In this document: positions 39,581 through 55,119 of the stretch, piece by piece
Position numbering within the stretch: position 1 is the first letter of the stretch
Layout of the letters: the number at the start of each line of letters is the position of its first letter
Notes under the pieces: model-generated
What the model was told of the DNA's origin: nothing
Seen by the model: only the letters and a program-made list of their open reading frames with translations
Databases searched by the model: none
Made by a program: the position numbers and the translations under genes
Source: Sanguibacter antarcticus
GTDB taxonomy: Bacteria > Actinomycetota > Actinomycetes > Actinomycetales > Cellulomonadaceae
DNA length: 64,000 nt
Assembly (NCBI RefSeq): GCF_002564005.1
Contig: NZ_PDJG01000001.1
Span: 1,178,001 to 1,242,000 of the forward strand
Reading direction: 5' to 3'

Positions 39581-40451
39581 GGAAGACGAGCTCGCGTGCG
39601 AGCTGACGGTAGGCCGTCGCGCCCGCGTGCGTCGGGGCGTACGTGGTGATGGGTTCGGCGGCCACCGAGGAGTCCGGGAACTTCACCGTGCGCCCGATGA
39701 CGGTGTGCATGAGGGTCTCGTTGAACGCTTCGAAGACTCGGGCGACGACCTCGCGGGAGTGCAGGGTCCGGTTGTCGTACATCGTCGCGATGATGCCGTC
39801 GACCTCGAGGCGCGGGTTGAGCCGGTCGCGGATCTTCTCGATCGTCTCGACGAGCAGCGCGACGCCGCGCAGCGCGAAGAACTCGCACTCGAGCGGGATG
39901 AGGACGCCGTGGGCGGCGGTGAGCGCGTTGACGGTGAGGAGCCCGAGGCTCGGCTGGCAGTCGACGAGGATGACGTCGTAGTCGTCCGTCACCGGGCGCA
40001 GCACGCGGGAGAGGACGGACTCGCGGGCGACCTCGCCGACGAGCTGCACCTCCGCAGCGGACAGGTCGATGTTGGCGGGCAGCACGTGCAGCCCGGAGAT
40101 GCGGGTCGGCACGATCGTCGCGTGGATGTCGGCGTCGCGCTCCATGAGGAGGTTGTAGATCGTCTGGTCGAGCTCGTGCGGGTTGACCCCGAGACCGACC
40201 GAGGCCGCGCCCTGGGGGTCGAAGTCGACGATGAGGACGCGGCGACCGTACTCCGCGAGGCTGGCACCGAGGTTGATGGTCGTGGTCGTCTTGCCCACGC
40301 CACCCTTCTGGTTGCACATCGCGATGATCCGCGCAGGGCCGTGGCTGGTCAGCGGGGCCGGCTCCGGGAAGTCGGGCAGACGGCGCCCGACCGCGTCGAG
40401 CGTCGGGTCTAGCGTCGGTTCGCTGGTGTCGTCCTGGGCCTGGCTGGTCAC
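39564..40451 (-). CDS. ParA-family chromosome partitioning ATPase
   Basis: This 295-residue protein has a deviant Walker A motif (NQKGGVGKTTTTINLGASLA), Walker A' (VLIVDFDPQGAASVGLG) and Walker B (YDVILVDCQPSLGLLTVNAL). It belongs to the second ParA/Soj paralogue that lies beside scpA in Actinobacteria (as in mycobacterial Rv1708), not to the origin-proximal parAB pair, since no parB follows. It probably acts in DNA positioning with the condensin genes it overlaps. Confidence 0.9.
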   Translation of the reverse strand: MTSQAQDDTSEPTLDPTLDAVGRRLPDFPEPAPLTSHGPARIIAMCNQKGGVGKTTTTINLGASLAEYGRRVLIVDFDPQGAASVGLGVNPHELDQTIYNLLMERDADIHATIVPTRISGLHVLPANIDLSAAEVQLVGEVARESVLSRVLRPVTDDYDVILVDCQPSLGLLTVNALTAAHGVLIPLECEFFALRGVALLVETIEKIRDRLNPRLEVDGIIATMYDNRTLHSREVVARVFEAFNETLMHTVIGRTVKFPDSSVAAEPITTYAPTHAGATAYRQLARELVFRGDAA

Positions 40452-40534
40452 GCGATCACGCTACCCCAGGGCACCCGCGCGGTCGCTGAAGCGCGCCGTC
40501 GCATGTCGTGCGTGCCTGCCGCGGTGCGACTGGC

Positions 40535-41491
40535 TCAGCCGAGCGCCCTGGGGTGCGACTGGATGTACACCTCGCGCAGCGCGTCCGCGGTCACCATCGT
40601 GTAGATCTGCGTCGTGGTGACCGAGGCATGCCCGAGGAGCTCTTGGACCACCCGCACGTCAGCGCCACCGGAGAGCAGGTGGGTCGCGAACGAGTGCCGC
40701 AGGGTGTGCGGGGAGACGTGGGCCGCGCCGGGCAGCTTCGCGCGCTCGGCGGACGTCCGCAGGACAGCCCATGCGCTCTGCCTGCTCAGACGGTTGCCGC
40801 GCGTGTTGAGAAAGATCGCGGGCGTCCCGCGACCGGTCGATACGAGGGCAGGTCGAGCCAGCACGAGATATGCCTCGACGGCGTCGACCGCGTAGGTCCC
40901 GACGGGCACGACGCGCTCCTTGCTGCCCTTGCCGAAGAGCCGCACGGACGCGGTGCCCCGCGTGAGGTCGAGGTCGTCGACGTCGAGGTTCACAGCCTCG
41001 GAGATACGCGCGCCCGTGGAGTAGAGGAGCTCGAGCAGCGCACGGTCGCGCAGCGGGCCCGGGCCCTCGCCTGCGCCCGCTGCCTCGAGGAGCAGCTCGA
41101 CGTCGTGCGTCGAGATCGCCTTGGGCAGGCGCTTGGGCCTGCTGGGGGGACGGATCCCGAGAGCCGGGTTCGAGGTCGTCAGTCGCTCCTCGACACAGAA
41201 CTTGTGCCACCCGCGCAGCGCCGCCAGGCTCCGCGCGGTCGACCCGGGAGCAAGGACGGCGCCACCGTCGGTGCCGGTGCGCAGCGCCTCGACGAACAGC
41301 TCGACGTCGCTCGTCTGAACCTCGGCGAGGTCGGTCTGGGTGGCGTCGAGGAACAGGACGTAGCGCGTGAGGTCCCGCCGGTACGCGGCCACCGTGTTCG
41401 GCGAGCTTCCTCGCTCGATTGCCAGGTGGTCGAGGTAGCCCTGGAGCGCACGACCCGCAGCGCTCTCTGAGACCGCAGCCGTCATAGCCAC
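40535..41491 (-). CDS. xerD: Site-specific tyrosine recombinase XerD
   Basis: This 318-residue protein has a SAM-like N-terminal domain ([26 protein letters not shown]) and a catalytic domain. The active residues are Arg in [12 protein letters not shown], Lys in [25 protein letters not shown], His in [12 protein letters not shown] and Tyr in the last. With XerC it resolves chromosome dimers at dif. The chromosomal cluster (xerD-parA-scpAB) and full set of residues separate it from phage integrases. GTG 41491 was preferred to ATG 41485 because of AGGAA placement. Confidence 0.93.
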
Positions 41492-41504
41492 CGCCGTTCC
41501 TGAC

Positions 41505-42683
41505 CTAGAAGGGCAGGAAGACGTCGACCGCTACGGCGACGAACAGCAACGTCAGGTAGGTGATCGAGGCGTGGAAGACCTTCATCGCACCGAGCTTGCC
41601 GAGCGTCGGGTCCATCGCACGCCGGTACATGCCGATGCACGAGTAGAGGAACCATGCACCGAGCCCCGTCGCCACGACCGCGTACACCCAGGACATGTTC
41701 TCGAGGGGCACGAGGGCGAGCGAGCACGCGATCATCGCGAGCGTGTAGAGCACCATCTCGCGGGCGACCTTGGCGTCGTCGGCGACGACGGGCAGCATCG
41801 GTACCCCGGCGTTGGCGTAGTCCCGCCGGAACTTCATCGACAGCGGCCAGTAGTGCGGCGGCGTCCAGAAGAAGATGACGAGGAAGAGCGCGACAGCGCC
41901 CCAGCTGAGCGATCCCGTGACGGCGGACCAGCCGATGAAGACCGGCATGCAGCCGGCGATCCCGCCCCACACGATGTTCTGCGGCGTGCGGCGCTTGAGG
42001 ATCATCGTGTAGCCCACGACGTAGATGAGGATCGCGCCCGCGGTCAGCAGCGCCGACGAGATGTTGACGACGAGAGCGAACCACAGGAGCGAGATCGCCC
42101 CGAGGGCCACGCCGAAGATCAGAGCGGACTCCGGCGACACCTCGCCGGTCACCAGCGGACGACGCTTGGTGCGGTCCATGATCTCGTCGATGTCACGGTC
42201 GATATAGCAGTTGAGGACGTTCGCGGACGCCGCGGCAGCCGTACCGCCGACGAGCGTCGCGATCACGAGCCACAACGACGGCAGACCGTCGGCAGCGAGG
42301 ATCATCGTCGGCAGGGTCGTCACGAGGAGGAGCTCGATGATGCGTGGCTTCGTCAGCGCCACGTAGGCGCCGAGCCGTCCGCCGAAGCTCTGGTCACGCT
42401 CGCCTGCCCCCGTCGACGACGTGGCCGGTGACGGTCGCTCGGGCGTCGCGTCGTCGTCGACGCTCAGACCGTCGTCGATGTCACGGCTACGACCGTGGTC
42501 GGCGTCGCCGCTCGGGGAGGATGCTGGGCCGCCGTCGCCGTGGGGACGGCTCGACGGCTGGGCCGATGCTGGGCTCGAAGTGTGCACGCGAGGCTGGGAT
42601 CCGTTCTGCGTCCGAGGGGAGCAGGTGCGCGAGCTGCTGTGCGCTGCCTGAGACGACGTTCGTTCATGGTACTGGTGTCTCAC
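41505..42683 (-). CDS. ctaB: Heme O synthase (protoheme IX farnesyltransferase) with long N-terminal extension
   Basis: This membrane prenyltransferase adds a farnesyl group to heme b for cytochrome oxidase. The core starts [26 protein letters not shown]. It contains [23 protein letters not shown], the Asp-rich prenyl-diphosphate site, and [26 protein letters not shown]. About nine membrane segments are expected. The GTG used has GGAGG eight bases upstream and gives 392 residues with about 95 disordered Ser/Pro/Asp-rich residues first. A second GTG at 42587 would shorten this to about 63. It is divergent from tkt. Confidence 0.88.
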
Positions 42684-42739
42684 CCTGGAACACCTCCGGC
42701 AGGGCCGGATCGTGGTGTGACGTTAGGAGGTGACCGCCG

Positions 42740-42753
42740 TGTGAGCGCTCACA
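42740..42753. promoter_or_regulatory. LacI-type operator between ctaB and tkt
   Basis: TGTGAGCGCTCACA is a perfect 14-bp palindrome. It is identical to the core of the ideal symmetric lac operator and typical of LacI-family repressor sites. It lies 56 bp before the ctaB start and 190 bp before the tkt start. The 260-bp divergent region (42684-42943) must carry both promoters, and no gene is seen in it. No LacI-family gene is in the window. Confidence 0.65.
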
Positions 42754-42943
42754 AGGTGCTCAGCGGGTGACGCGTTAAGGTTGGTGATGGTCCAGACGTG
42801 CACGATGGCGCAGGGCCACCAGTGCTCTACAGCACGTGCTCCATCAGGCGCCAGGCTGGCCCGCACAGGTCTACCGCACTGCCTGCCACACCCTGCACGA
42901 CGACTGATTCCGGTGAGCGAGAGCCCCGGAGAAATGAGGTTCG

Positions 42944-45121
42944 GTGAACGCGTTCGCCCCCGCAGAGCAGCCCTTCGAGTGGACTGACCTGGACGACCGA
43001 GCAGTCAAGATGATCAAGGCCCTCGCGGCCGACGCCGTCGAGAAGGTCGGCAACGGCCACCCCGGCACCGCGATCTCCCTCGCCCCCGCGGCATACCTGC
43101 TGTTCCAGAAGGTGCTGCGCCACGACCCGAGCGACGCCCACTGGGTCGGTCGCGACCGTTTCGTCCTCTCCGCAGGGCACGCCTCGCTGACGCTCTACCT
43201 CCAGCTCTTCCTCTCGGGCTACGACCTCGACCTCGACGACCTCAAGTCGCTGCGCACCTGGGGCTCGAAGACCCCGGGACACCCCGAGTACAAGCACACA
43301 GACGGTGTCGAGATCACGACCGGCCCCCTCGGCCAGGGCCTCGCGTCCGCCGTCGGCATGGCCATGGCCGCCCGCCGCGAGCGTGGGCTGCTCGACCCGA
43401 GCACAGCGCCCGGCGAGAGCCCGTTCGACCACTCTGTCTACGTCATCGCCGGCGACGGTGACCTCCAGGAGGGCGTGACGTCCGAGGCGTCGTCGCTCGC
43501 TGGGCACCAGAAGCTCGGCAACCTCGTGGTCGTCTACGACCAGAACCACATCTCCATCGAGGACGACACGAACATCTCGTTCAGCGAGGACGTCCTCGCG
43601 CGCTACGAGGCGTACGGCTGGCACGTCCAGCGCGTCGATTGGACGGGTGGCGGGACCGGCTACGTCGAGGACGTCGCCGAGCTCGCTGCAGCACTGGCCG
43701 CAGCGAAGAGCGAGACCGGCAAGCCGTCGATCATCGCGCTGCGCACCGTCATCGGCTGGCCCTCCCCGAGCAAGCAGAACACCGGCAAGATCCACGGGTC
43801 TGCGCTGGGTGGCGACGAGATCAAGGGCCTCAAGATCGCTCTCGGCCTCGACCCCGACGAGACCTTCGCTGCTCCGGCCGAGGTCCTCGCGCACGCTCGT
43901 GAGGTCGGTGCCCGCGGGGCTGCGCTCCGCGAGAGCTGGACCGTCGGCTTCGACGCGTGGAAGGCCTCCAACCCGCAGGGCGAGGCGCTCCTCGAGCGCC
44001 TCTCCACCCGCACGCTGCCCGACGGCTGGTCTGAAGCCCTCCCCGTGTTCGAGGGCGGCAAGGACATGTCGACCCGCGCCGCGTCCGGCAAGGTGCTCAG
44101 CGCGCTTGCACCGGTGCTCCCTGAGCTCTGGGGCGGGTCCGCCGACCTCGCCGAGTCGAACAACACGACGATGGCCGGCGAGCCGTCGTTCATCCCGGCC
44201 GAGCACTCGACCGACGCGTGGACAGGCGACAAGTACGGCCGCACGCTGCACTTCGGCATCCGCGAGCACGCCATGGGCGCGATCCTCAACGGGATCGTCC
44301 TGCACGGCGGCACCCGCGCGTACGGCGGCACGTTCCTCGTGTTCTCCGACTACATGCGTCCCGCTGTGCGCCTCGCGGCGCTCATGGGAGCACCGTCGAC
44401 GTTCGTGTGGACGCACGACTCGATCGGTCTCGGCGAAGACGGCCCGACGCACCAGCCCATCGAGCACCTGGCCGCGCTGCGGGCCATCCCGGGGCTCGAC
44501 GTCATCCGCCCGGCGGACGCCAACGAGGTCTCTTGGGCCTGGAAGACGCTCCTCGAGCACGACGACCGCCCCGCCGGGATCGTCCTCACGCGCCAGAACG
44601 TCCCGACGTACACGCGGAGCGAGGGTGCCGCCAGCGGCGACGCCTTCGCCTCGGCCGCCGGCGTCGCCCGCGGCGCGTACGTCCTCCTGGACGCACCGTC
44701 CGGCACACCGGACGTCATCCTCCTGGCGACCGGGTCTGAGGTCCAGCTCGCCGTCGCGGCGCGCGAGACGCTCGCTGGGGAAGGCATCGCGGCACGCGTC
44801 GTGTCCGTCCCGTGCCGCGAGTGGTTCGACGCGCAGGACGCCGAGTACCGCGAGTCGGTGCTGCCCGCGTCCGTCAAGGCCCGGGTATCGGTCGAGGCCG
44901 GCATCGCGCAGGGCTGGCGCGAGCTCGTCGGAGACGCCGGCCGCTCGATCAGCATCGAGCACTACGGTGCGTCCGCCGACTTCAAGACGCTGTTCCAGGA
45001 GTTCGGGATCACGTCCGAGACCGTCGCTGCAGCAGCACGAGAGTCGATCGCCGCTGTGGGTTCAGACACACCTGGAGCAGCACCTGTCCCGTCGGAGGGC
45101 GGAACAGCCGACCAGCACTGA
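42944..45121 (+). CDS. tkt: Transketolase
   Basis: This 725-residue thiamine-diphosphate enzyme moves two-carbon units between sugar phosphates in the pentose-phosphate pathway. Residues to about 330 bind the cofactor ([32 protein letters not shown]). The middle domain carries [15 protein letters not shown] and [25 protein letters not shown]. The C-terminal domain follows from about 560, with [14 protein letters not shown]. The GTG start is behind GAGG. It leads the tkt-tal-zwf-opcA-pgl cluster. Confidence 0.97.
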
Positions 45122-45145
45122 GGTCGCTCAGCACCACCAGCTTGC

Positions 45146-45174
45146 GACCGGTCTGTCTCTGGACTAGACCGGTC
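45146..45174. promoter_or_regulatory. Inverted repeat between tkt and tal
   Basis: GACCGGTCT and AGACCGGTC are perfect 9-bp arms around 11 bases. The dyad lies 24 bp after the tkt stop and 33 bp before the tal start. It may be an attenuating or RNA-processing hairpin, or an operator for a tal promoter. Confidence 0.45.
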
Positions 45175-45207
45175 TCCGTCCCACCACGCTCTCGAGGAGA
45201 GGTCATC

Positions 45208-46371
45208 GTGACATCTGAAGCCAACACCCCCCATCGGTCCGACGCAGCTGCGCAGCTGTCCGCAGCGGGGGTGGCCATCTGGCTCGATGATCTCTCCCGG
45301 GAGCGGATCACGTCCGGCAACCTCGCAGACCTCGTCGCAACGCGCGGCGTCGTCGGAGTGACCACCAACCCGACGATCTTCGCCGGTGCTCTCGCCAAGG
45401 GCTCGAGCTACGACGCCCAGCTCGGCGAGGGCGACGGACCGACGTCCGAGGCGGAGCTCGACGAGCTCGTCTGGGCGATCACCACCCAGGACGTCCGCGA
45501 CGCCTGCGACGTCCTGCGTCCCGTCTACGACGCCACGGACGGTGTCGACGGACGCGTGTCCATCGAGGTCGACCCCCGGCTCGCGCGGGACACCCACGCG
45601 ACCATCGCCCTCGCGAAGAAGCTGTGGACGCTCGTCGACCGACCGAACCTCTACATCAAGATCCCGGCGACCGTCGAAGGGCTCCCGGCGATCACCGCGA
45701 CCATCGCCGAAGGCATCAGCGTCAACGTCACGCTGATCTTCTCGCTCGAGCGCTACCGCGCCGTCATCGACGCATACCTCGTAGGGATCGAGGCGGCCCA
45801 CGCGGCCGGCCACGACGTCCACCCCATCGGGTCCGTCGCCTCCTTCTTCATCAGTCGGGTCGATGCGGCTGTCGACCCCGCCCTCGACGCGCTCGGGACC
45901 CCCGAGGCGACCGAGCTGCGGGGCAAGGTCGCGGTCGCGAACGCCCGTCTCGCCTATGCCATCCACCGTGACGTGCTCGCCAGCGATCGCTGGAAGAAGC
46001 TCGCCGGGCTCGGCGCACAGCCTCAGCGCCCGCTCTGGGCCTCGACCGGCGTGAAGGACCCGTCCTACCCCGACACCCTGTACGTCACGGAGCTCGTGGC
46101 CGCCGGCGTGGTCAACACGATGCCCGAGCCCACGCTCACGGCCGTCGCCGACCACGGCGTCATCACCGGGGACACCATCACCCCCGCCCTCGAGGACGCG
46201 CGTACGGTCATCGACCGCCTCGCCGCTGTCGGCATCTCCCTCGACGAGATCACCGCGCAGCTCGAGACCGAAGGGCTCGAGAAGTTCGTCACGAGCTGGG
46301 AAGAGCTCCTCACGACCGTCACGACAGGGCTCGACCGGGTGCACGAAACAGGCAAGAACGACAAATCCTGA
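45208..46371 (+). CDS. tal: Transaldolase
   Basis: This 387-residue enzyme transfers a dihydroxyacetone unit between sugar phosphates. The Schiff-base Lys is in [16 protein letters not shown]. Further conserved blocks are [30 protein letters not shown] and [15 protein letters not shown]. It is of the longer actinobacterial form. The GTG start has GAGGAGA at good spacing. A large stem-loop follows directly after the stop. Confidence 0.96.
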
Positions 46372-46376
46372 GATAG

Positions 46377-46444
46377 GGTGCCGCTGCAACCAGGCTCTGA
46401 GGTAGAACGTCTAGCAAACGACTACCGCCTGGTGCAGCGGCACC
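46377..46444 (+). ncRNA. Candidate structured RNA element between tal and zwf
   Basis: The sequence folds into one long hairpin starting five bases after the tal stop. GGTGCCGCTGCA pairs with TGCAGCGGCACC (12 bp). After one bulged A, CCAGGC pairs with GCCTGG (6 bp). After a five-base left bulge, GGTAG pairs with CTACC (5 bp), and CGT pairs with ACG (3 bp) under a seven-base loop CTAGCAA. That is 26 pairs in 68 bases. It is much more elaborate than a simple terminator and has no T-run. It may be a 3' mRNA stabiliser, a processing site, a partial terminator that tunes zwf, or a small RNA. I know of no named family for it. Confidence 0.55.
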
Positions 46445-46508
46445 TTGCTCCGTCCGACCACGACCGCTGTCCGTACCGCGCTCCCGAGCACCGCTGGCGC
46501 AACCGAGA

Positions 46509-48062
46509 ATGGTGAACCACGTGAGACCCGCAAAGATCAGCGCCGAGTCGAACCCGCTCCGCGACCCGCGTGACCTCCGCCTCCCCCGCATCGCAGGCCC
46601 CTGCGGGCTCGTGATCTTCGGAGTCACCGGAGACCTCGCGCGCAAGAAGCTCATGCCGGCCGTCTACGACCTCGCGAACCGCGGCCTCCTGCCTCCCGGC
46701 TTCGCTCTCACCGGTTTCGCTCGCCGCGACTGGGAAGACCAAGACTTCGCCGAGGTCGTCCACGATGCGGTGAAGCAGTACGCCCGCACGCCCTTCCGCG
46801 AGTCCGTGTGGAAGCAGCTCGCCGAAGGCATCCGGTTCGTCCAGGGCAGCTTCGACGACGACGAGGCGTTCGAGCGCCTCAGCGAGACGGTCGCCGAGCT
46901 CGACGAGATCCGAGGCACCAAGGGCAACCACGCCTTCTACCTCTCTGTGCCGCCCAGCGCGTTCCCGGTCGTCTGCCGCCAGCTCGCCCGGTCAGGCCTG
47001 TCCGAGTCGACCGAGGACGCCTGGCGCCGGGTCGTCATCGAGAAGCCGTTCGGCCACGACCTCGAGAGCGCACGCGAGCTCAACGACGTCGTGTCCGAGG
47101 TCTTCGCTCCCGAGGACGTCTTCCGCATCGACCACTACCTCGGCAAGGAGACGGTCCAGAACCTCCTCGCCCTGCGCTTCGCCAACCAGATGTACGAGCC
47201 GATCTGGAACGCGAACTACGTCGACCACGTTCAGATCACCATGGCCGAGGATATCGGCATCGGCGGGCGCGCCGGCTACTACGACGGCATCGGTGCAGCA
47301 CGCGACGTCATCCAGAACCACCTCCTCCAGCTCTTGGCGCTCACCGCGATGGAAGAGCCGGTCTCCTTCAGCGCCGACGACCTCATCGCCGAGAAGATCA
47401 AGGTGCTCTCCGCGATGCGGCTGCCCAAGGACCTCGGCAAGCACACAGCCCGTGGGCAGTACGAATCAGGATGGCAGGGCGGCGAAGAGGTCGTCGGCTA
47501 CCTCGAGGAAGCCGGCACCGACCCAGAGTCCGCTACCGAGACGTTCGCCGCGATCCGCGTCGACATCGATACCCGCCGATGGGCTGGGGTGCCGTTCTAC
47601 CTCCGCGCCGGCAAACGGCTCGGCCGCCGGGTCACCGAGATCGCGATCGTCTTCAAGAAGGCACCGCACCTTCCCTTCGAGTCGACAGCCACCTCTGAGC
47701 TCGGCAAGAACGCCATCGTCATCCGCGTCCAGCCCGACGAGGGGGTCACGCTCCGCCTCGGTGCCAAGGTCCCTGGCACCGCCATGGAGGTCCGCGACGT
47801 CACCATGGACTTCGGCTACGGTCACGCCTTCACCGAGTCATCTCCCGAGGCCTACGAACGACTCATCCTCGACGTGCTCCTCGGCGACCCGCCGCTGTTC
47901 CCGCGTCACGAAGAGGTCGAGCTCTCGTGGAAGATCCTCGATCCCATCACCCAGTTCTGGGCGAGCAAGGGCAAGCCTGAGCCCTACCGCTCCGGCACGT
48001 GGGGCCCCGAGTCTGCGACCGCCATGCTCACGCGCGACGGTCGCGCCTGGCGCCGTCCGTGA
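46509..48062 (+). CDS. zwf: Glucose-6-phosphate dehydrogenase
   Basis: This 517-residue enzyme oxidises glucose 6-phosphate and makes NADPH, the entry to the oxidative pentose-phosphate pathway. VIFGVTGDLARKKLMPA is the coenzyme-binding fold, FRIDHYLGKETVQN carries the catalytic His and substrate Lys, and IEKPFGHDLESA is conserved. Starts at ATG 46509 or GTG 46521 are possible. The next gene, opcA, encodes its partner. Its distance from tal, 137 bp with a large hairpin, suggests separate control of expression. Confidence 0.96.
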   Translation: MVNHVRPAKISAESNPLRDPRDLRLPRIAGPCGLVIFGVTGDLARKKLMPAVYDLANRGLLPPGFALTGFARRDWEDQDFAEVVHDAVKQYARTPFRESVWKQLAEGIRFVQGSFDDDEAFERLSETVAELDEIRGTKGNHAFYLSVPPSAFPVVCRQLARSGLSESTEDAWRRVVIEKPFGHDLESARELNDVVSEVFAPEDVFRIDHYLGKETVQNLLALRFANQMYEPIWNANYVDHVQITMAEDIGIGGRAGYYDGIGAARDVIQNHLLQLLALTAMEEPVSFSADDLIAEKIKVLSAMRLPKDLGKHTARGQYESGWQGGEEVVGYLEEAGTDPESATETFAAIRVDIDTRRWAGVPFYLRAGKRLGRRVTEIAIVFKKAPHLPFESTATSELGKNAIVIRVQPDEGVTLRLGAKVPGTAMEVRDVTMDFGYGHAFTESSPEAYERLILDVLLGDPPLFPRHEEVELSWKILDPITQFWASKGKPEPYRSGTWGPESATAMLTRDGRAWRRP

Positions 48063-48111
48063 GCGCCCAGGCTCGACCGGCACCCGACTCACCCCTGACG
48101 GAGGACCGCAC

Positions 48112-49035
48112 GTGATCATCGACATGCCAGGCACGACCGCCGGAGCCGTCGCCAAACGACTCATCAAGATCCGCGAAGAAGGCGGAGCGATCGCGCTCGG
48201 GCGCGTGCTCACCCTCATCATCGTGGCCGACGAGGGCGACATCACCGAGGCTGTCGACGCCGCGAACGACGCGAGCCGTGAGCACCCGTGCCGCATCCTC
48301 GTCGTCGCGGCCGCGCACGACCGCACGACCGACGTCCTCGATGCCGAGATCCGTGTCGGCGGTGACGCTGGCGCGAGCGAGGTCATCATCCTGCGCCCCT
48401 CGGGCGGCCTCATCGGCCACCCTGACACCCTCGTCATGCCGCTCCTGCTCCCTGACGCGCCGATCGTCGCGTGGTGGCCGCAGAACATGCCTGCGAGCCC
48501 GTCGACAGACCTCATCGGGGCCATGGCCAAGATCCGGATCACCGACTCGATGAACTGCACGCAGCCGATCGACAACCTCCAGGTGCTGCGAGCGAACCAC
48601 GAGCCCGGTGACATCGACCTCGCGTGGACGCGTGTGACCGTCTGGCGCGGGCTGCTCGCCGCCGCTCTGGACCAGCCCCCCTACGAGCCGGTGCTCTCCG
48701 CCGTCGTCGAAGGCGACGAGGCCCACCCGTCGGTCGACCTGCTCGCGGCGTGGCTCGCCCGAGGTCTCAAGTGCCCCGTCACGATCCGTCGCAAGAGCCA
48801 GGCGTATGCCATCACGCGCGTCGTCATGACCCGCAGGTCGGGTGACATCATCCTCGACCGCCCCGACGGCCACATCGCCACCCTCACCCAGCCCGGGCAA
48901 CCGGACCATCGGATCGCCCTGCCCGTGCGGCAGCTGCGTGAGTGCCTCTCAGAAGAGCTCCGCCGGCTCGACCCCGACGAGGTCTACGGCGACGTCCTGG
49001 TCAAGGGGCTCGTCCGCGTCGAGGCCGACGCGTGA
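48112..49035 (+). CDS. opcA: Glucose-6-phosphate dehydrogenase assembly protein OpcA
   Basis: The protein has 307 residues. OpcA proteins bind glucose-6-phosphate dehydrogenase and are needed for its full activity and oligomerisation in cyanobacteria and Actinobacteria. Conserved blocks visible are TLIIVADEGDITEAVDAAN, PCRILVVA, LLLPDAPIVAWWPQNMP and TRVTVWRGLLAAALD. The GTG start has GGAGGACC upstream. Its 3' end overlaps pgl as GTGA. Confidence 0.93.
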   Translation: MIIDMPGTTAGAVAKRLIKIREEGGAIALGRVLTLIIVADEGDITEAVDAANDASREHPCRILVVAAAHDRTTDVLDAEIRVGGDAGASEVIILRPSGGLIGHPDTLVMPLLLPDAPIVAWWPQNMPASPSTDLIGAMAKIRITDSMNCTQPIDNLQVLRANHEPGDIDLAWTRVTVWRGLLAAALDQPPYEPVLSAVVEGDEAHPSVDLLAAWLARGLKCPVTIRRKSQAYAITRVVMTRRSGDIILDRPDGHIATLTQPGQPDHRIALPVRQLRECLSEELRRLDPDEVYGDVLVKGLVRVEADA

Positions 49036-49781
49036 CGGCGCCGCGCCTCGTCGTCGTCCACCCGACGCCTGCGGTGCTCGCTGAAGCCGTCGCCGCACGG
49101 CTCCTCACGCGGATCATCGACATCCAGTCCGTGCGCTCACCCGTGCACGTCGTCGTCACCGGCGGCACCATCGGTATCCGGACGCTGGCTGCCGTCGCGA
49201 CCAGCCCAGTCCGCACCGCGGTCGACTGGACCCAGGTGCACGTCTGGTGGGGTGACGAGCGCTTCCTGCCTGCGGGTGACCCTGAGCGCAACGAGACACA
49301 GGCGCGCAGCGCGCTCCTCGACAGCCTCGAGTCGCTCCCGGCCGACAACATCCATGCGATGGCGCCGGACGACGGAACCCGGACCGCAGAGGACGCTGCA
49401 GACCTCTATGCCGCCGAGCTGGCGCGCTTCGCACCCGAGGGCGCCCTGGCTCCTGCGTTCGACGTCACGCTCGTGGGTATGGGTCCCGACGCGCACGTCG
49501 CTTCGCTCTTCCCCGGCAACTCCGCGCTCGAAGTGACCGGACGTACGACGACAGCGGTGCACGACTCCCCCAAGCCGCCCTCAGACCGGGTGTCGTTGAC
49601 CTTCGAGGCGCTGCAGGGATCGTCGGAGGTGTGGGTCGTCGCCGCCGGCGCCGACAAGGCCTCAGCCGTCGCTGCAGCACTCGGCGGGGCGCCTGTCACC
49701 GAAGCACCGATCAGCGGAGCCACCGGACGCCTGCTCACGGCATGGCTCGTCGACGTCGACGCGGCCTCGGCGGTCGCCTGA
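49032..49781 (+). CDS. pgl: 6-phosphogluconolactonase
   Basis: This 249-residue enzyme hydrolyses 6-phosphogluconolactone, the step after Zwf. HVVVTGGTIGIRTLAAV is the nucleotide-sugar-like loop, VHVWWGDERFLPAGDPERNETQA is the active region, and DVTLVGMGPDAHVASLFPG carries the catalytic His. It is coupled to opcA by GTGA overlap. It closes the pentose-phosphate cluster and is followed by a strong two-way terminator. Confidence 0.95.
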   Translation: MTAPRLVVVHPTPAVLAEAVAARLLTRIIDIQSVRSPVHVVVTGGTIGIRTLAAVATSPVRTAVDWTQVHVWWGDERFLPAGDPERNETQARSALLDSLESLPADNIHAMAPDDGTRTAEDAADLYAAELARFAPEGALAPAFDVTLVGMGPDAHVASLFPGNSALEVTGRTTTAVHDSPKPPSDRVSLTFEALQGSSEVWVVAAGADKASAVAAALGGAPVTEAPISGATGRLLTAWLVDVDAASAVA

Positions 49782-49785
49782 TCTA

Positions 49786-49827
49786 CGCCGCTCCCCGCGG
49801 GCGGCCGACGCCCCGCGGGGAGCGGCG
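49786..49827. terminator. Bidirectional terminator between pgl and rbpA
   Basis: CGCCGCTCCCCGCGGG and CCCGCGGGGAGCGGCG form a perfect 16-bp stem with a 10-base loop. It sits between the ends of two converging genes, so it can stop transcripts from both sides. Confidence 0.85.
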
Positions 49828-49848
49828 CGGATCGGTCCGATCTGGGCC

Positions 49849-50208
49849 TCAGCGCAGCGGACGTCCTCCGCGGCGGGCCCTGAGCGAGGCAAGCGCCTCG
49901 TCAAGCAACGCTTTGCCGTCAGCCTCGCTGCGACGTTCTTTCACGTACGCGAGGTGGGTCTTGTAGGGCGTGTTGCGCACCGCCGCTGGAGGGTTCTCCG
50001 GGTCTTGACCGGCTGGAAGACCACAGCTCGTGCACTCCCAGACCTCCGGCGCCTCGACGTGCGCCTCGATCGAGAAGCTCGGTCGGGTCACGTGCTCGTG
50101 GGCACAGTAGTACGCGACGAAGAAGCGCGGAGCGGTGTCACCTCGCTCGGACTCGCCCATAGGTCCGGCACCGACACGCGATCCACGGATCGCACTACCA
50201 CCAGCCAC
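49849..50208 (-). CDS. rbpA: RNA polymerase-binding protein RbpA
   Basis: This 119-residue actinobacterial transcription factor binds RNA polymerase and the main sigma factor and helps open promoters. The N-terminal tail has IRGSRVGAGPMGESERG. The core domain carries a zinc site of CAHEH and CTSCG type (YYCAHEHVTRPSFS, WECTSCGLPAG). The C-terminal sigma-binding helix is rich in Arg and Leu. Its presence is strong evidence for an actinobacterium. Confidence 0.96.
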   Translation of the reverse strand: MAGGSAIRGSRVGAGPMGESERGDTAPRFFVAYYCAHEHVTRPSFSIEAHVEAPEVWECTSCGLPAGQDPENPPAAVRNTPYKTHLAYVKERRSEADGKALLDEALASLRARRGGRPLR

Positions 50209-50246
50209 TGCAGCTCCTCCGAAAGGCGGACGAGGTCATCCCAGAG

Positions 50247-50504
50247 CTACGGGGCGACCTTCTGGATAAGGCCGAGGAGCACGATGGACGTGAACCATAC
50301 GAGCGCGAACCCGACCGTGATGCGGTTGAGGTTCCGCTCAGCGACGCCTGAGCTTCCGACGCTGCTCGAGACACCTCCACCGAACATGTCGGAGAGTCCC
50401 CCGCCCTTGCCCTTGTGCATGAGGATCAAGAGAATCATGAAGGCGCTCGTCAGGACAAGGATGACCTCGAGGGCCACACGTAGGATCTCCACAGTCGCGT
50501 TCAT
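50247..50504 (-). CDS. secG: Preprotein translocase subunit SecG
   Basis: This 85-residue membrane protein of the Sec export channel has two hydrophobic segments (ILRVALEVILVLTSAFMILLILM and ITVGFALVWFTSIVLLGLI) around the loop GKGGGLSDMFGGG. This loop is the family signature. The start is ATG 50504; an alternative GTG at 50531 would add nine residues. It lies after tpiA in the usual actinobacterial order. Confidence 0.93.
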   Translation of the reverse strand: MNATVEILRVALEVILVLTSAFMILLILMHKGKGGGLSDMFGGGVSSSVGSSGVAERNLNRITVGFALVWFTSIVLLGLIQKVAP

Positions 50505-50610
50505 TCCTCTGACTCGAGAGGGAACCGACACGTTCAGCGGATCCCAGGATGTGTGGCACCGGCGGCACCGAGGTCAAGAATAGGCCAGTTTACGGCTCCC
50601 GATCCACCGA

Positions 50611-50640
50611 GCCCGCCAGTCGCTCTCGCGACCGGCGGGC
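50611..50640. terminator. Stem-loop between tpiA and secG
   Basis: GCCCGCC-A-GTCGC and GCGAC-C-GGCGGGC pair over 12 bp with one mismatch around the loop TCTC. It starts 30 bases after the tpiA stop on the minus strand and probably ends the glycolytic transcript. Confidence 0.7.
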
Positions 50641-50669
50641 CAGGCTCGTCGACCTGGGACCGTCGAGGC

Positions 50670-51464
50670 TCAGGCTCCGGCGTGCGCCTGGTACCGAGCG
50701 ATCTTCGCGAACTCCTCGGCGTCGAGGCTCGCTCCGCCGACGAGAGCACCGTCGACGTCCGTCTCCTTCATGAGCTCCGCGATCGACGTGGACTTCACCG
50801 AACCGCCGTACAGCACACGGACGGCGTCAGCGACCTCGGTCGAGTAGAGCTCGGCGAGACGCACGCGGATCGCTCCAGCGACCTCCTGAGCGTCCTGCGG
50901 CGTGGCGACCTCACCCGTACCGATGGCCCAGACGGGCTCGTACGCGATGACGACCTTCGCGGCGTCGTCTGCGGAGAGGCCCTCGAGCGCTCCGTCGACC
51001 TGCGCGAGGGTGTGGGACACCTGGTCGCCGGCCTTGCGGACCTCGAGCGCCTCGCCGACGCAGATGATCGGGACGAGCCCGTGCGCGAGAGCAGCCTTCG
51101 ACTTCGCGTTGACGAGCGCGTCGTCTTCCGCGTGGTACTGACGACGCTCGGAGTGACCGATCGCGACGTACTTCACGCCCAGCTTCGCGAGGAACACCGG
51201 AGAGATCTCGCCGGTGTACGCGCCGGACACGTGCTGCGAGACGTCCTGTGCGCCGTAGCTGAGCTCGAGCTTGTCAGCGTCGACGAGCGTCTGGACGCTG
51301 CGCAGGTCGGTGAACGGAGCGAGCACGGTGACCTCGACGGCCGAGAAGTCGTGCTTGCCGTCCTTGAGCGCCCAGGCGAGCTTCTGCACCAGGTGGATGG
51401 CCTCCTGGTGGTCCTGGTTCATCTTCCAGTTCCCTGCGATGAGGGGTGTGCGGGTCTGTGCCAC
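50670..51464 (-). CDS. tpiA: Triosephosphate isomerase
   Basis: This 264-residue enzyme interconverts dihydroxyacetone phosphate and glyceraldehyde 3-phosphate. The substrate Lys is in IAGNWKMN, the catalytic His in [11 protein letters not shown], and the catalytic Glu in [24 protein letters not shown] closes the phosphate site. The GTG at VAQTRTP is the family start. It is the last gene of gap-pgk-tpiA, 35 bp after pgk. Confidence 0.97.
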
Positions 51465-51499
51465 GGTAGCTCTACCTTCTTCAGAGAGGACGGGGTCGG

Positions 51500-52702
51500 T
51501 CACGCGTCGAGGACGGCGATGCCGGGGAGGGACTTGCCCTCGAGGTACTCGAGGCTGGCGCCACCACCGGTCGAGATGTGGCTGAAACCGGCCTCGTCGA
51601 AGCCGAGGATGCGCACCGCGGCAGCAGAGTCGCCGCCACCGACGATCGTGAACGCACCGTTGTTCGCGGTCGCGTCGACGAGCGCCTGCGCGACAGCGCG
51701 GGTCCCGGCCGAGAACGCCTCGAACTCGAACACGCCGGCGGGTCCGTTCCAGACCGCGGTCTTGGCGTCAGCGATCTTCGACGCGAAGAGCGCCTGCGAC
51801 GCCGGACCGATGTCGAGGCCGATCTTGCCGTCAGGGATCGCGTCTGCCGGGACGACGGTCGCGGGCGAGTCTGCCTTGAACTCGTCGGCGACGACGATGT
51901 CGGTCGGGAGGACGATCTCGACGCCGGACTCCTCTGCCTGCGCGAGGTAGCCCTTGACGGCCTCGATCTGGTCGGACTCGAGGAGCGAGTTGCCGACCGG
52001 GTATCCCTTCGCCGCGAGGAAGGTGAAGACCATGCCCCCGCCGATGAGGAGGCGGTCAGCCTTGGTGAGCAGGTTCGCGATGACTCCGAGCTTGTCGGAG
52101 ACCTTCGAGCCGCCGAGGACGACGACGTACGGGCGTGCGGGGTCTTCGGTCGCCTTCTTGAGGGACTCGACCTCCTTGAGCACGAGCGTGCCGACCGCAG
52201 ACGGGAGCTTGAGCGCCACGTCGTACACGGACGCCTGCTTGCGGTGCACCACACCGAAGCCGTCGGACACGAACGCGTCCGCGAGCGAGGCCAGGTCGTC
52301 AGCGAGCGAGGCACGCTCAGCGTCGTCCTTGGAGGTCTCGCGCGGGTCGAAGCGGATGTTCTCAAGAAGAGCCACCTCGCCGTCCGCGAGAGCAGCGACG
52401 GTGGCCTTGGCGGACTCGCCGACCGTGTCCTGCGCGAGAGCGACCGGGGCACCGAGGAGCTCGGCGAGACGGGCAGCGACGGGGGCGAGGGAGTACTTCG
52501 CCTCCGGTGCACCCTTGGGGCGACCGAGGTGGGCGGCGACGACGACCCGCGCACCGGCGTCGACGAGCGACTTCAGTGTCGGCAGGGCGGCGCGGATGCG
52601 GCCGTCGTCGGTGATGGTCGTGCCGTCGAGCGGCACGTTGAAGTCTGAACGGACGAGCACGCGCTTGCCGCGCAGGTCGCCGAGGTCCTCGATCGTCTTC
52701 AT
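51500..52702 (-). CDS. pgk: Phosphoglycerate kinase
   Basis: This 400-residue enzyme makes ATP from 1,3-bisphosphoglycerate. The N-terminal domain contains [23 protein letters not shown] and [10 protein letters not shown]. The C-terminal nucleotide domain contains [14 protein letters not shown] and [13 protein letters not shown]. It is complete and of normal length. A 17-bp inverted repeat lies between it and gap upstream. Confidence 0.97.
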
Positions 52703-52733
52703 GGGTTCTCCAAGCTCAGGGGGCGGACATGCA

Positions 52734-52785
52734 GACGTCCGCGTGAGTGACGTGTGCCGGAAGGCTCATCACTCACGCGGACGTC
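52734..52785 (-). promoter_or_regulatory. 17-bp perfect inverted repeat between gap and pgk
   Basis: GACGTCCGCGTGAGTGA and TCACTCACGCGGACGTC are perfect arms with an 18-base loop. It lies 40 bases after the gap stop and 31 before the pgk start. It may stabilise the gap mRNA, act as a partial terminator, or be a processing site that sets different levels of gap and pgk. Confidence 0.7.
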
Positions 52786-52825
52786 ATCTATTCGGGGTTA
52801 CCCGGCAGTCTTCGCAGCGCGAAGG

Positions 52826-53887
<1,062 letters not shown>

Positions 53888-53889
53888 TC

Positions 53890-53907
53890 ACGTACGTCGA
53901 CGTACGT
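53890..53907 (-). promoter_or_regulatory. 18-bp perfect palindrome upstream of gap
   Basis: ACGTACGTCGACGTACGT is palindromic over its full length. The 8-bp palindrome GAACGTTC directly adjoins it (53882-53889). The site begins 60 bp before the gap start. This is a strong candidate operator for control of the gap-pgk-tpiA genes; no regulator of central glycolysis is encoded next to it. Confidence 0.6.
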
Positions 53908-54011
53908 TGGTGTGATGGTGCCCGATCGCGCCAGAGGGTCGCTGCACGTTTTCTGCAAGGTACCCCCGGTCGATCTGACATCTTGAGCCTATACCCCGGC
54001 GGGACTTCATG

Positions 54012-54029
54012 TGGGGACCATCGTCCCCA
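54012..54029 (-). terminator. Short hairpin between whiA and gap
   Basis: TGGGGAC-CATC-GTCCCCA is a perfect 7-bp stem. It lies 110 bases after the whiA stop and before the gap promoter region. It may end the uvrC-rapZ-yvcK-whiA transcript, although there is no T-run. Confidence 0.45.
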
Positions 54030-54138
54030 TGAGACACGATCTCGTCCCGATGTGGTCACGGGGACGTGTGCTGTTCACCCGAAATGCCTCTGTAAACCAA
54101 TATGAACACCAGACTACGTCTCACAGTCTGGACGGCGT

Positions 54139-55119
54139 CTAGAGATCTAGCAGCTCAGGGCTCAGTCCAGCCTCGGTGTCGGGGATGCCGAGCTCCTCTG
54201 CGCGCTTGTCCGCGGTCGCGAGCAACCGCCGGATACGTCCCGCTACGGCGTCCTTCGTCAGAGGCGGGTCAGCAAGCTGGCCGAGCTCCTCGAGCGACGA
54301 CTGCTTGTGCGCGAGGCGCAGCTCGCCCGCCTGACGCAGGTGGTCCGGGAGATCCGGTCCGAGGATCTCGAACGCGCGCTCCACGCGCGCCCCGGCAGCG
54401 ACGGCAGCCCGCGCAGAGCGACGCAGGTTCGCGTCGTCGAAGTTGGCAAGACGGTTGGCCGTGCCCCGCACCTCACGACGGAGCCGTCGCTCCTCCCAGA
54501 CGACGACCGCGTCCTTCGCGCCGAGCCGGGTGAGGAGCGCGCCGATCGCCTCACCGTCACGGATGACGACCCGGTCGACGTTGCGGACCTCGCGGGTCTT
54601 GGCCGCGATGCCCAGCCTCCGGGCAGCGCCGACGAGCGCGAGCGCCGCCTCGGGGCCAGGGCACGTGACCTCGAGGGCAGACGAACGACCAGGCTCTGTG
54701 AGCGATCCGTGGGCGAGGAACGCGCCACGCCACGCGGCTTCGGCCTCGCCCGTCCCGGCCGAGACGACCTGGGGTGGGAGACCACGGACCGGCCGGCCGC
54801 GGCTGTCGAGGAGCCCCGTCTGGCGGGCGAGGGACTCACCGTCCTTAACCACCCGGATCACATAGCGGCTCCCCCGCCGGATCCCTCCGGCGGAGACGAC
54901 GATGATCTCGGACGTGTGCCCATAGACCTCCGCGATCGCCTGCCGCAGCCTCCGCGCCGCGATCGCCGTGTCGAGCTCAGCCTCGATGACGATCCGTCCC
55001 GAGATGATGTGCAGACCCCCGGCGAACCGGAGCATCGCAGACACCTCAGCCTTGCGGTAGGACGTCTTGTCGATCTTCAAGCGGGCAAGCTCGTCTTTCA
55101 CCTGTGCGGTCAGCGCCAT
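54139..55119 (-). CDS. whiA: DNA-binding protein WhiA
   Basis: This 326-residue regulator controls sporulation-linked cell division in Streptomyces and cell cycle genes in other Gram-positives. The N-terminal half is a degenerate homing-endonuclease fold ([36 protein letters not shown]). The C-terminal helix-turn-helix includes [33 protein letters not shown]. The ATG at MALTAQV is the family start. It follows yvcK and rapZ in the conserved order. Confidence 0.95.

Follow-up and report, generated by a model that had tools for sequence, protein, structure and literature searches.

Between the transaldolase gene (tal) and the glucose-6-phosphate dehydrogenase gene (zwf) of Sanguibacter antarcticus lies an elaborate predicted hairpin, and the question this locus raises is whether the hairpin is a regulatory RNA in its own right or simply the structured end of a gene. 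The window, by which we mean the whole stretch of 64,000 nucleotides analysed here, carries on its plus strand the run tkt (42944-45121), tal (45208-46371), zwf (open frame 46509-48062), opcA (48112-49035) and pgl (49032-49781). NCBIfam profile searches identify tkt and pgl, and they confirm the identities of the genes flanking the hairpin that the earlier note had named, with matches above cutoff for tal (NF002881, TIGR00876) and zwf (TIGR00871); the OpcA model scores 253.9 bits, slightly below its cutoff of 256.25. The true start of zwf is probably the GTG at 46521, as suggested by a GTGA that is invariant in the genus alignment of the intergenic gap, and the encoded protein is 94% identical to the zwf proteins of Sanguibacter gelidistatuariae and S. 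suarezii. A second zwf-like gene lies outside the window (G000:C1:2730326-2731732; 37% identity to the zwf of the window), and two congeners, G002 and G005, each have a second zwf-like gene too.

The hairpin occupies positions 46377..46444 of the plus strand, and sequence and fold prediction bear out the architecture described in the earlier note, down to the coordinates. Its base is a 12-bp helix (46377-46388 with 46433-46444) whose two arms, 46377..46388 and 46433..46444, were also found as an inverted repeat. Above it are stacked helices of 6 bp (46390-46395/46427-46432), 5 bp (46401-46405/46422-46426) and 3 bp (46408-46410/46418-46420), closed by a 7-nt loop (46411-46417) and interrupted by a 1-nt bulge at 46389, a 5-nt bulge at 46396-46400 and a 2x1 internal loop. 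The surrounding segment, 46371-46450, has a minimum free energy of -47.9 kcal/mol, and because none of 200 dinucleotide shuffles folds as well (z -7.2), the fold does exceed chance for its own composition, as had been proposed. The opposite strand of the same segment is nearly as stable (-47.6 kcal/mol). The first base of the 12-bp helix is the sixth base past the tal stop codon, and the helix ends 76 nt ahead of the likely zwf start, so that the stem cannot directly mask the zwf ribosome site. A similarity search finds the hairpin once in the genome, with only itself at a significant E and the next match at E 0.46 over 23 nt; a repeated palindrome of the REP/BIME type is ruled out by this single copy. 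It is likewise true that the hairpin belongs to no named RNA family at the Rfam cutoffs; its best match, to a microRNA model, scores 25.1 bits where 85 would be needed.

A fold that is improbable for its own composition may still be commonplace in its genome. Indeed, the plus strand of the window alone contains 15 non-overlapping 80-nt positions that are more stable than the tal-zwf hairpin. For a wider view, we sampled 20 stretches of 20 kb which, together with the window, make up 464 kb, applied crude gene calls of our own, and took the best hairpin from each of 194 intergenic gaps of 40-400 nt (133 codirectional, 27 convergent and 34 divergent). At -47.0 kcal/mol the tal-zwf hairpin ranks 16th among the 194, and all 15 hairpins that outrank it sit in gaps with a gene end. 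These stronger hairpins include near-perfect stems of about 20 bp just past a stop codon, and they are U-poor as well, with between 0 and 3 T among the first 8 nt past the folded stem. Long, U-poor stems that follow genes are thus recurrent in this genome, and the tal-zwf stem is one of the less regular among them; the view that its order goes beyond the needs of a terminator does not survive comparison with the longer, more regular stems past other stop codons. Ranked by the energy of the whole 80-nt window, it is 18th among the 133 codirectional gaps.

Hairpins at least as strong as that of tal-zwf occur in 9 of the 133 codirectional gaps (tal-zwf counted), in 7 of the 27 convergent gaps and in none of the 34 divergent ones. 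Convergent gaps differ from divergent ones (p = 0.002), codirectional gaps do not differ significantly from divergent ones (p = 0.21), and codirectional and convergent gaps taken together against divergent ones give p = 0.08. The enrichment at gene ends is limited to the strongest hairpins among the 194 gaps and is lost at laxer thresholds: an energy cutoff of -30 leaves 58/133 codirectional, 17/27 convergent and 18/34 divergent gaps, and a minimum of 25 pairs leaves 53/133, 12/27 and 21/34. Overall, the tal-zwf hairpin is not exceptional for this genome. Within the window, other gene junctions illustrate the range. The tkt-tal gap (45122-45207) has a small hairpin of about 10 pairs, but its stability does not exceed that of its shuffles (z 0.17), and such a stem is therefore absent from some gaps of the tkt-tal-zwf-opcA-pgl operon. 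The end of pgl (49780-49833) has 22-nt arms that are 91% complementary, gives the most stable 80-nt fold found on either strand of the window, and apparently marks the end of the run. On the minus strand, the tpi-secG gap (50586-50670) also has a strong hairpin right past a gene (-51.1 kcal/mol, z -4.2).

Is the hairpin nonetheless maintained among relatives, as a specific regulatory element might be? Among 109 relatives' loci, tal and zwf lie in order in 101, which with the window gives 102 gap records; the remaining eight (L026, L027, L030, L031, L038, L042, L077 and L102) lack a tal match and do not enter the count. Some genomes occur twice among these loci, and the gaps of L024 and L039 are identical. 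Measured to the zwf start of the window, 41 of the 102 records have no gap at all between the two genes. The others, with the stop codon included, span 20-39 nt in 4 records, 40-300 nt in 35 and more than 300 nt in 22. The 40-300 nt class has 33 distinct records, the window's among them, and the fold z score is below -2 in 10 of these and below -3 in 5.

Within the genus, the hairpin is not common to the five other Sanguibacter genomes, where it is either absent or replaced. Two of these congeners have exactly the gaps of S. gelidistatuariae (61 nt, z -0.75) and S. suarezii (z -0.97), neither with a strong fold. G004 (z -5.3) and G001 (z -4.3) have another pair of hairpins in common, and the hairpin of G002 (z -2.9) is different again. 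The gap changes fast, and one might suppose that the palindrome is a chance inverted repeat without function, a supposition in keeping with the two congeners devoid of a strong fold and with the many records in which tal and zwf have no gap between them. We nonetheless regard it as highly improbable, given the z score of the fold in the window, the lack of any of the strongest sampled hairpins in the divergent gaps, and a significant fold at this site in four of the six genus genomes (z -2.9 to -5.3), whose sequences differ.

Another idea builds on the suggestion in the earlier note that the hairpin could set the tal:zwf ratio: it would do so as a dedicated cis-regulatory RNA, for example an attenuator or a hairpin ahead of zwf that binds a ligand or a protein. 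A strong, bulged fold does separate two genes of the same pathway, and when the window structure is placed on the six-row genus alignment, 60.2% of the cells are paired, a figure matched by only 17 of 500 shuffles, with the number of pairs showing two-sided changes matched by 21 of 500; both results are weak, coming from a poor alignment and a structure taken from one row. The covariation score itself was matched by 89 of 500 shuffles on that same poor alignment, and covariation over the six genus genomes gives no real support for the fold. We also built a covariance model, R1, from the one window stretch entered twice. With a self score of 110.9 bits, R1 recovers only itself at low E in 200 family genomes; the seven other matches have E values of 0.02-0.094 per genome, which across 200 genomes is chance level, and none adjoins tal or zwf. 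Nothing above that level was therefore found in the 199 other family genomes, in a search whose stricter filters may have lost weak matches. In 19 relatives' loci selected from the 109, R1 found no match up to E 5, and it found two further weak matches in the window itself. Neither compensatory changes in relatives nor an Rfam match at cutoff, the marks of a conserved structured RNA, are seen here. The prediction places one dominant fold at the site, with no visible alternative, and the distance to the likely zwf start also argues against such control. Taken together, these results make a dedicated regulatory RNA unlikely, and the comparative checks suggested for it came out negative.

The other proposal in the earlier note was a small RNA made from the 3' end of tal, either by cleavage of the tal mRNA or as an RNA that stops at its 3' end. 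Small RNAs derived from 3'-UTRs end at stable stems past stop codons, and the tal-zwf stem is just such a place. The sequence is not conserved in the genus, so that there is no conserved seed, and no Rfam family comes near its cutoff. The proposal thus finds no sequence support, and we consider it very improbable.

Regulation might instead act at the level of DNA, through an operator or a zwf promoter box within the palindrome. Among the relatives, the tal-zwf gaps of L048, L049, L053, L054, L028, L069, L013, L061, L011, L043 and L041 contain a -10-like box (TATGAT, TATCAT, TAGGAT or TAGGCT), a hint that a separate zwf promoter may lie in the gap in those genomes. These boxes, too, are without a good -35, and in the window the sole TANNNT of the gap is a TAGGGT that lies before the hairpin and has no matching -35. 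A scan restricted to sigma-70-like promoters found none in 40000-55000, and neither the promoter scan nor inspection of boxes revealed a clear zwf promoter behind the hairpin. We therefore hold a DNA-level element to be very unlikely, if marginally less so than the small RNA. The lack of a clear zwf promoter also means that strong termination at the hairpin would be odd.

What, then, is the tal-zwf hairpin? We believe it is probably a gene-end hairpin that belongs to the tal mRNA and is specific to this lineage, acting, if it has a role, as a generic partial U-poor terminator, as a barrier to 3'-to-5' exonucleases, or as both. Several observations point this way: the strong fold begins right past a stop codon, it is present in single copy and lacks a U-tract, and most genomes of the genus fold significantly in this gap despite unlike sequences. 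Of the features of a canonical intrinsic terminator, the stable hairpin soon past the stop codon is present and the U-tract directly after the stem is absent: the 12-bp helix is followed by 3 scattered T within 8 nt, and the wobble-extended stem by 2 T. This is the arrangement expected of a U-poor, or 'I-shaped', terminator, although the site is borderline by the rule of 3 U in 8 nt (PMC8269248). A consensus terminator scan did not list the hairpin, whose loop and stem fall outside the limits of that scan.

Structured 3' ends of this kind are known from GC-rich actinobacteria. Term-seq in S. clavuligerus classed 353 of 535 structured 3' ends as U-lacking and 182 as U-rich, split at 3 U in 8 nt (PMC8269248), and U or A trails are described as rare next to inferred terminator hairpins (PMC8355165). 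A review places U-less mycobacterial terminators close past stop codons; the same review describes termination in mycobacteria as mostly Rho-dependent and intrinsic terminators as scarce, and a title in its reference list names the U-tract as a requirement of the mycobacterial polymerase (PMC12288462). For C. glutamicum, 320 predicted terminators showed a clear 3' end, which in most cases fell in the first arm of the stem, with RNase action given as a possible cause (PMC3890552). As these sources describe the U-lacking or 'I-shaped' ends (PMC8269248, PMC12288462), the tal-zwf hairpin resembles them in being a stable stem near a stop codon with no U-tract; it differs in lying between codirectional genes of the same pathway and in its predicted bulges and internal loop.

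An intercistronic stem-loop blocks mRNA decay in the puf operon, and the tal-zwf hairpin is alike in standing between cistrons of a presumed operon. The same likeness extends to papBA of E. coli, one of several operons in which structure-guided intra-operon decay is described as established (PMC5927463). According to that account, the E. coli structures lie mostly within coding regions and are frequently conserved, whereas the tal-zwf hairpin is intergenic and not conserved in the genus. Among the matches listed in our literature search, no paper is on the tal-zwf hairpin by its title or the start of its abstract.

As a gene-end hairpin, the tal-zwf stem would act on the tkt-tal-zwf-opcA-pgl transcript generically, as a partial U-poor terminator, and it might also, or instead, block 3'-to-5' exonucleases at the end of tal. 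The result could be a tkt-tal mRNA somewhat more abundant than the zwf-opcA-pgl mRNA. Selection, if any, would then be on the presence of a stable stem at the site rather than on its sequence or shape. Partial termination or mRNA decay at the hairpin may shift the tal:zwf ratio. The earlier observation of the hairpin is confirmed and the significance attached to it is not; we read it as an ordinary, fast-evolving 3'-end hairpin of tal.

The same comparative test gives a very different answer only 6 kb away. On the minus strand of the window the genes run gap-pgk-tpi-secG, with gap at 52826-53830 (NCBIfam profile search) and pgk at 51500-52702 (so named after a bifunctional pgk/tpi model that it matches below the cutoff). 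Between the first two lies a hairpin at 52734-52785, detected as an inverted repeat, by folding (z -7.55) and by alignment. Like the tal-zwf hairpin, it is a long stem without a U-tract between two genes of central metabolism. Unlike the tal-zwf hairpin, its arms, both of 18 nt, are identical in all six genus genomes while the loop and flanks vary, and compensatory changes appear beyond the genus. Searched for as an exact pattern, parts of the arms turn up in those six genomes and nowhere in the other 194 family genomes covered. At 29 of 30 pgk loci, obtained from 39 genomes searched and including that of the window, the intergenic gap contains a hairpin whose energy per 80 nt is at least as low as -37.8 kcal/mol; the remaining locus (L209) has a 14-nt gap and no hairpin.

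An alignment of 26 of these loci, which omits L209 and three whose hairpins were judged too unlike (L204, L207 and L211), has 18 pairs formed in 90.1% of cells, with two-sided changes in 14 pairs. None of 500 shuffles matched it on any of five measures, and sliding the arms out of register lowers the pairing to 24-52%. The pair count is biased in its own favour, since each row is the best hairpin of its gap and the four unlike loci are omitted; a covariance model built from the 26-locus alignment, R2, is the fairer test. Of the 297 genomes searched in the order, R2 has a match at E 0.001 or better in 35, of which 24 had no part in building the model. The other 262 have none under the strict filters applied, which speaks against a wide spread. 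Where loci were given, 29 of 30 lie between gap and pgk, including 18 of the 19 in genomes outside the model set. Elsewhere in the class the only matches, all of them weak, come from 3 of 245 further genomes. The gap-pgk hairpin is thus a conserved intercistronic hairpin, with compensatory changes beyond the genus in other Micrococcales. It reached no Rfam cutoff at the window site or in the 9 loci scanned, the window's among them, and no paper among the matches listed is on it by title or abstract start; one of them, on S. aureus RNase III (PMC3386247), holds gap-pgk and hairpin terms.

A broader model may be considered, wherein hairpins within operons serve as tuned valves of termination or decay for central carbon metabolism, some slow-evolving (gap-pgk, in part of the Micrococcales) and others fast-evolving (tal-zwf), each setting the ratio of its flanking genes. 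We regard this model as doubtful. Regardless, the tal-zwf hairpin is one more gene-end hairpin of little significance of its own, and it carries a caution: a striking fold in a GC-rich genome does not by itself make a regulatory RNA. The same comparative test, applied within the same window, singled out the gap-pgk hairpin as conserved, at no Rfam cutoff in the loci scanned, and this hairpin is the better object for a study of covariation. With it, the question whether these actinobacteria express GAPDH and phosphoglycerate kinase to different degrees would become open to direct test.
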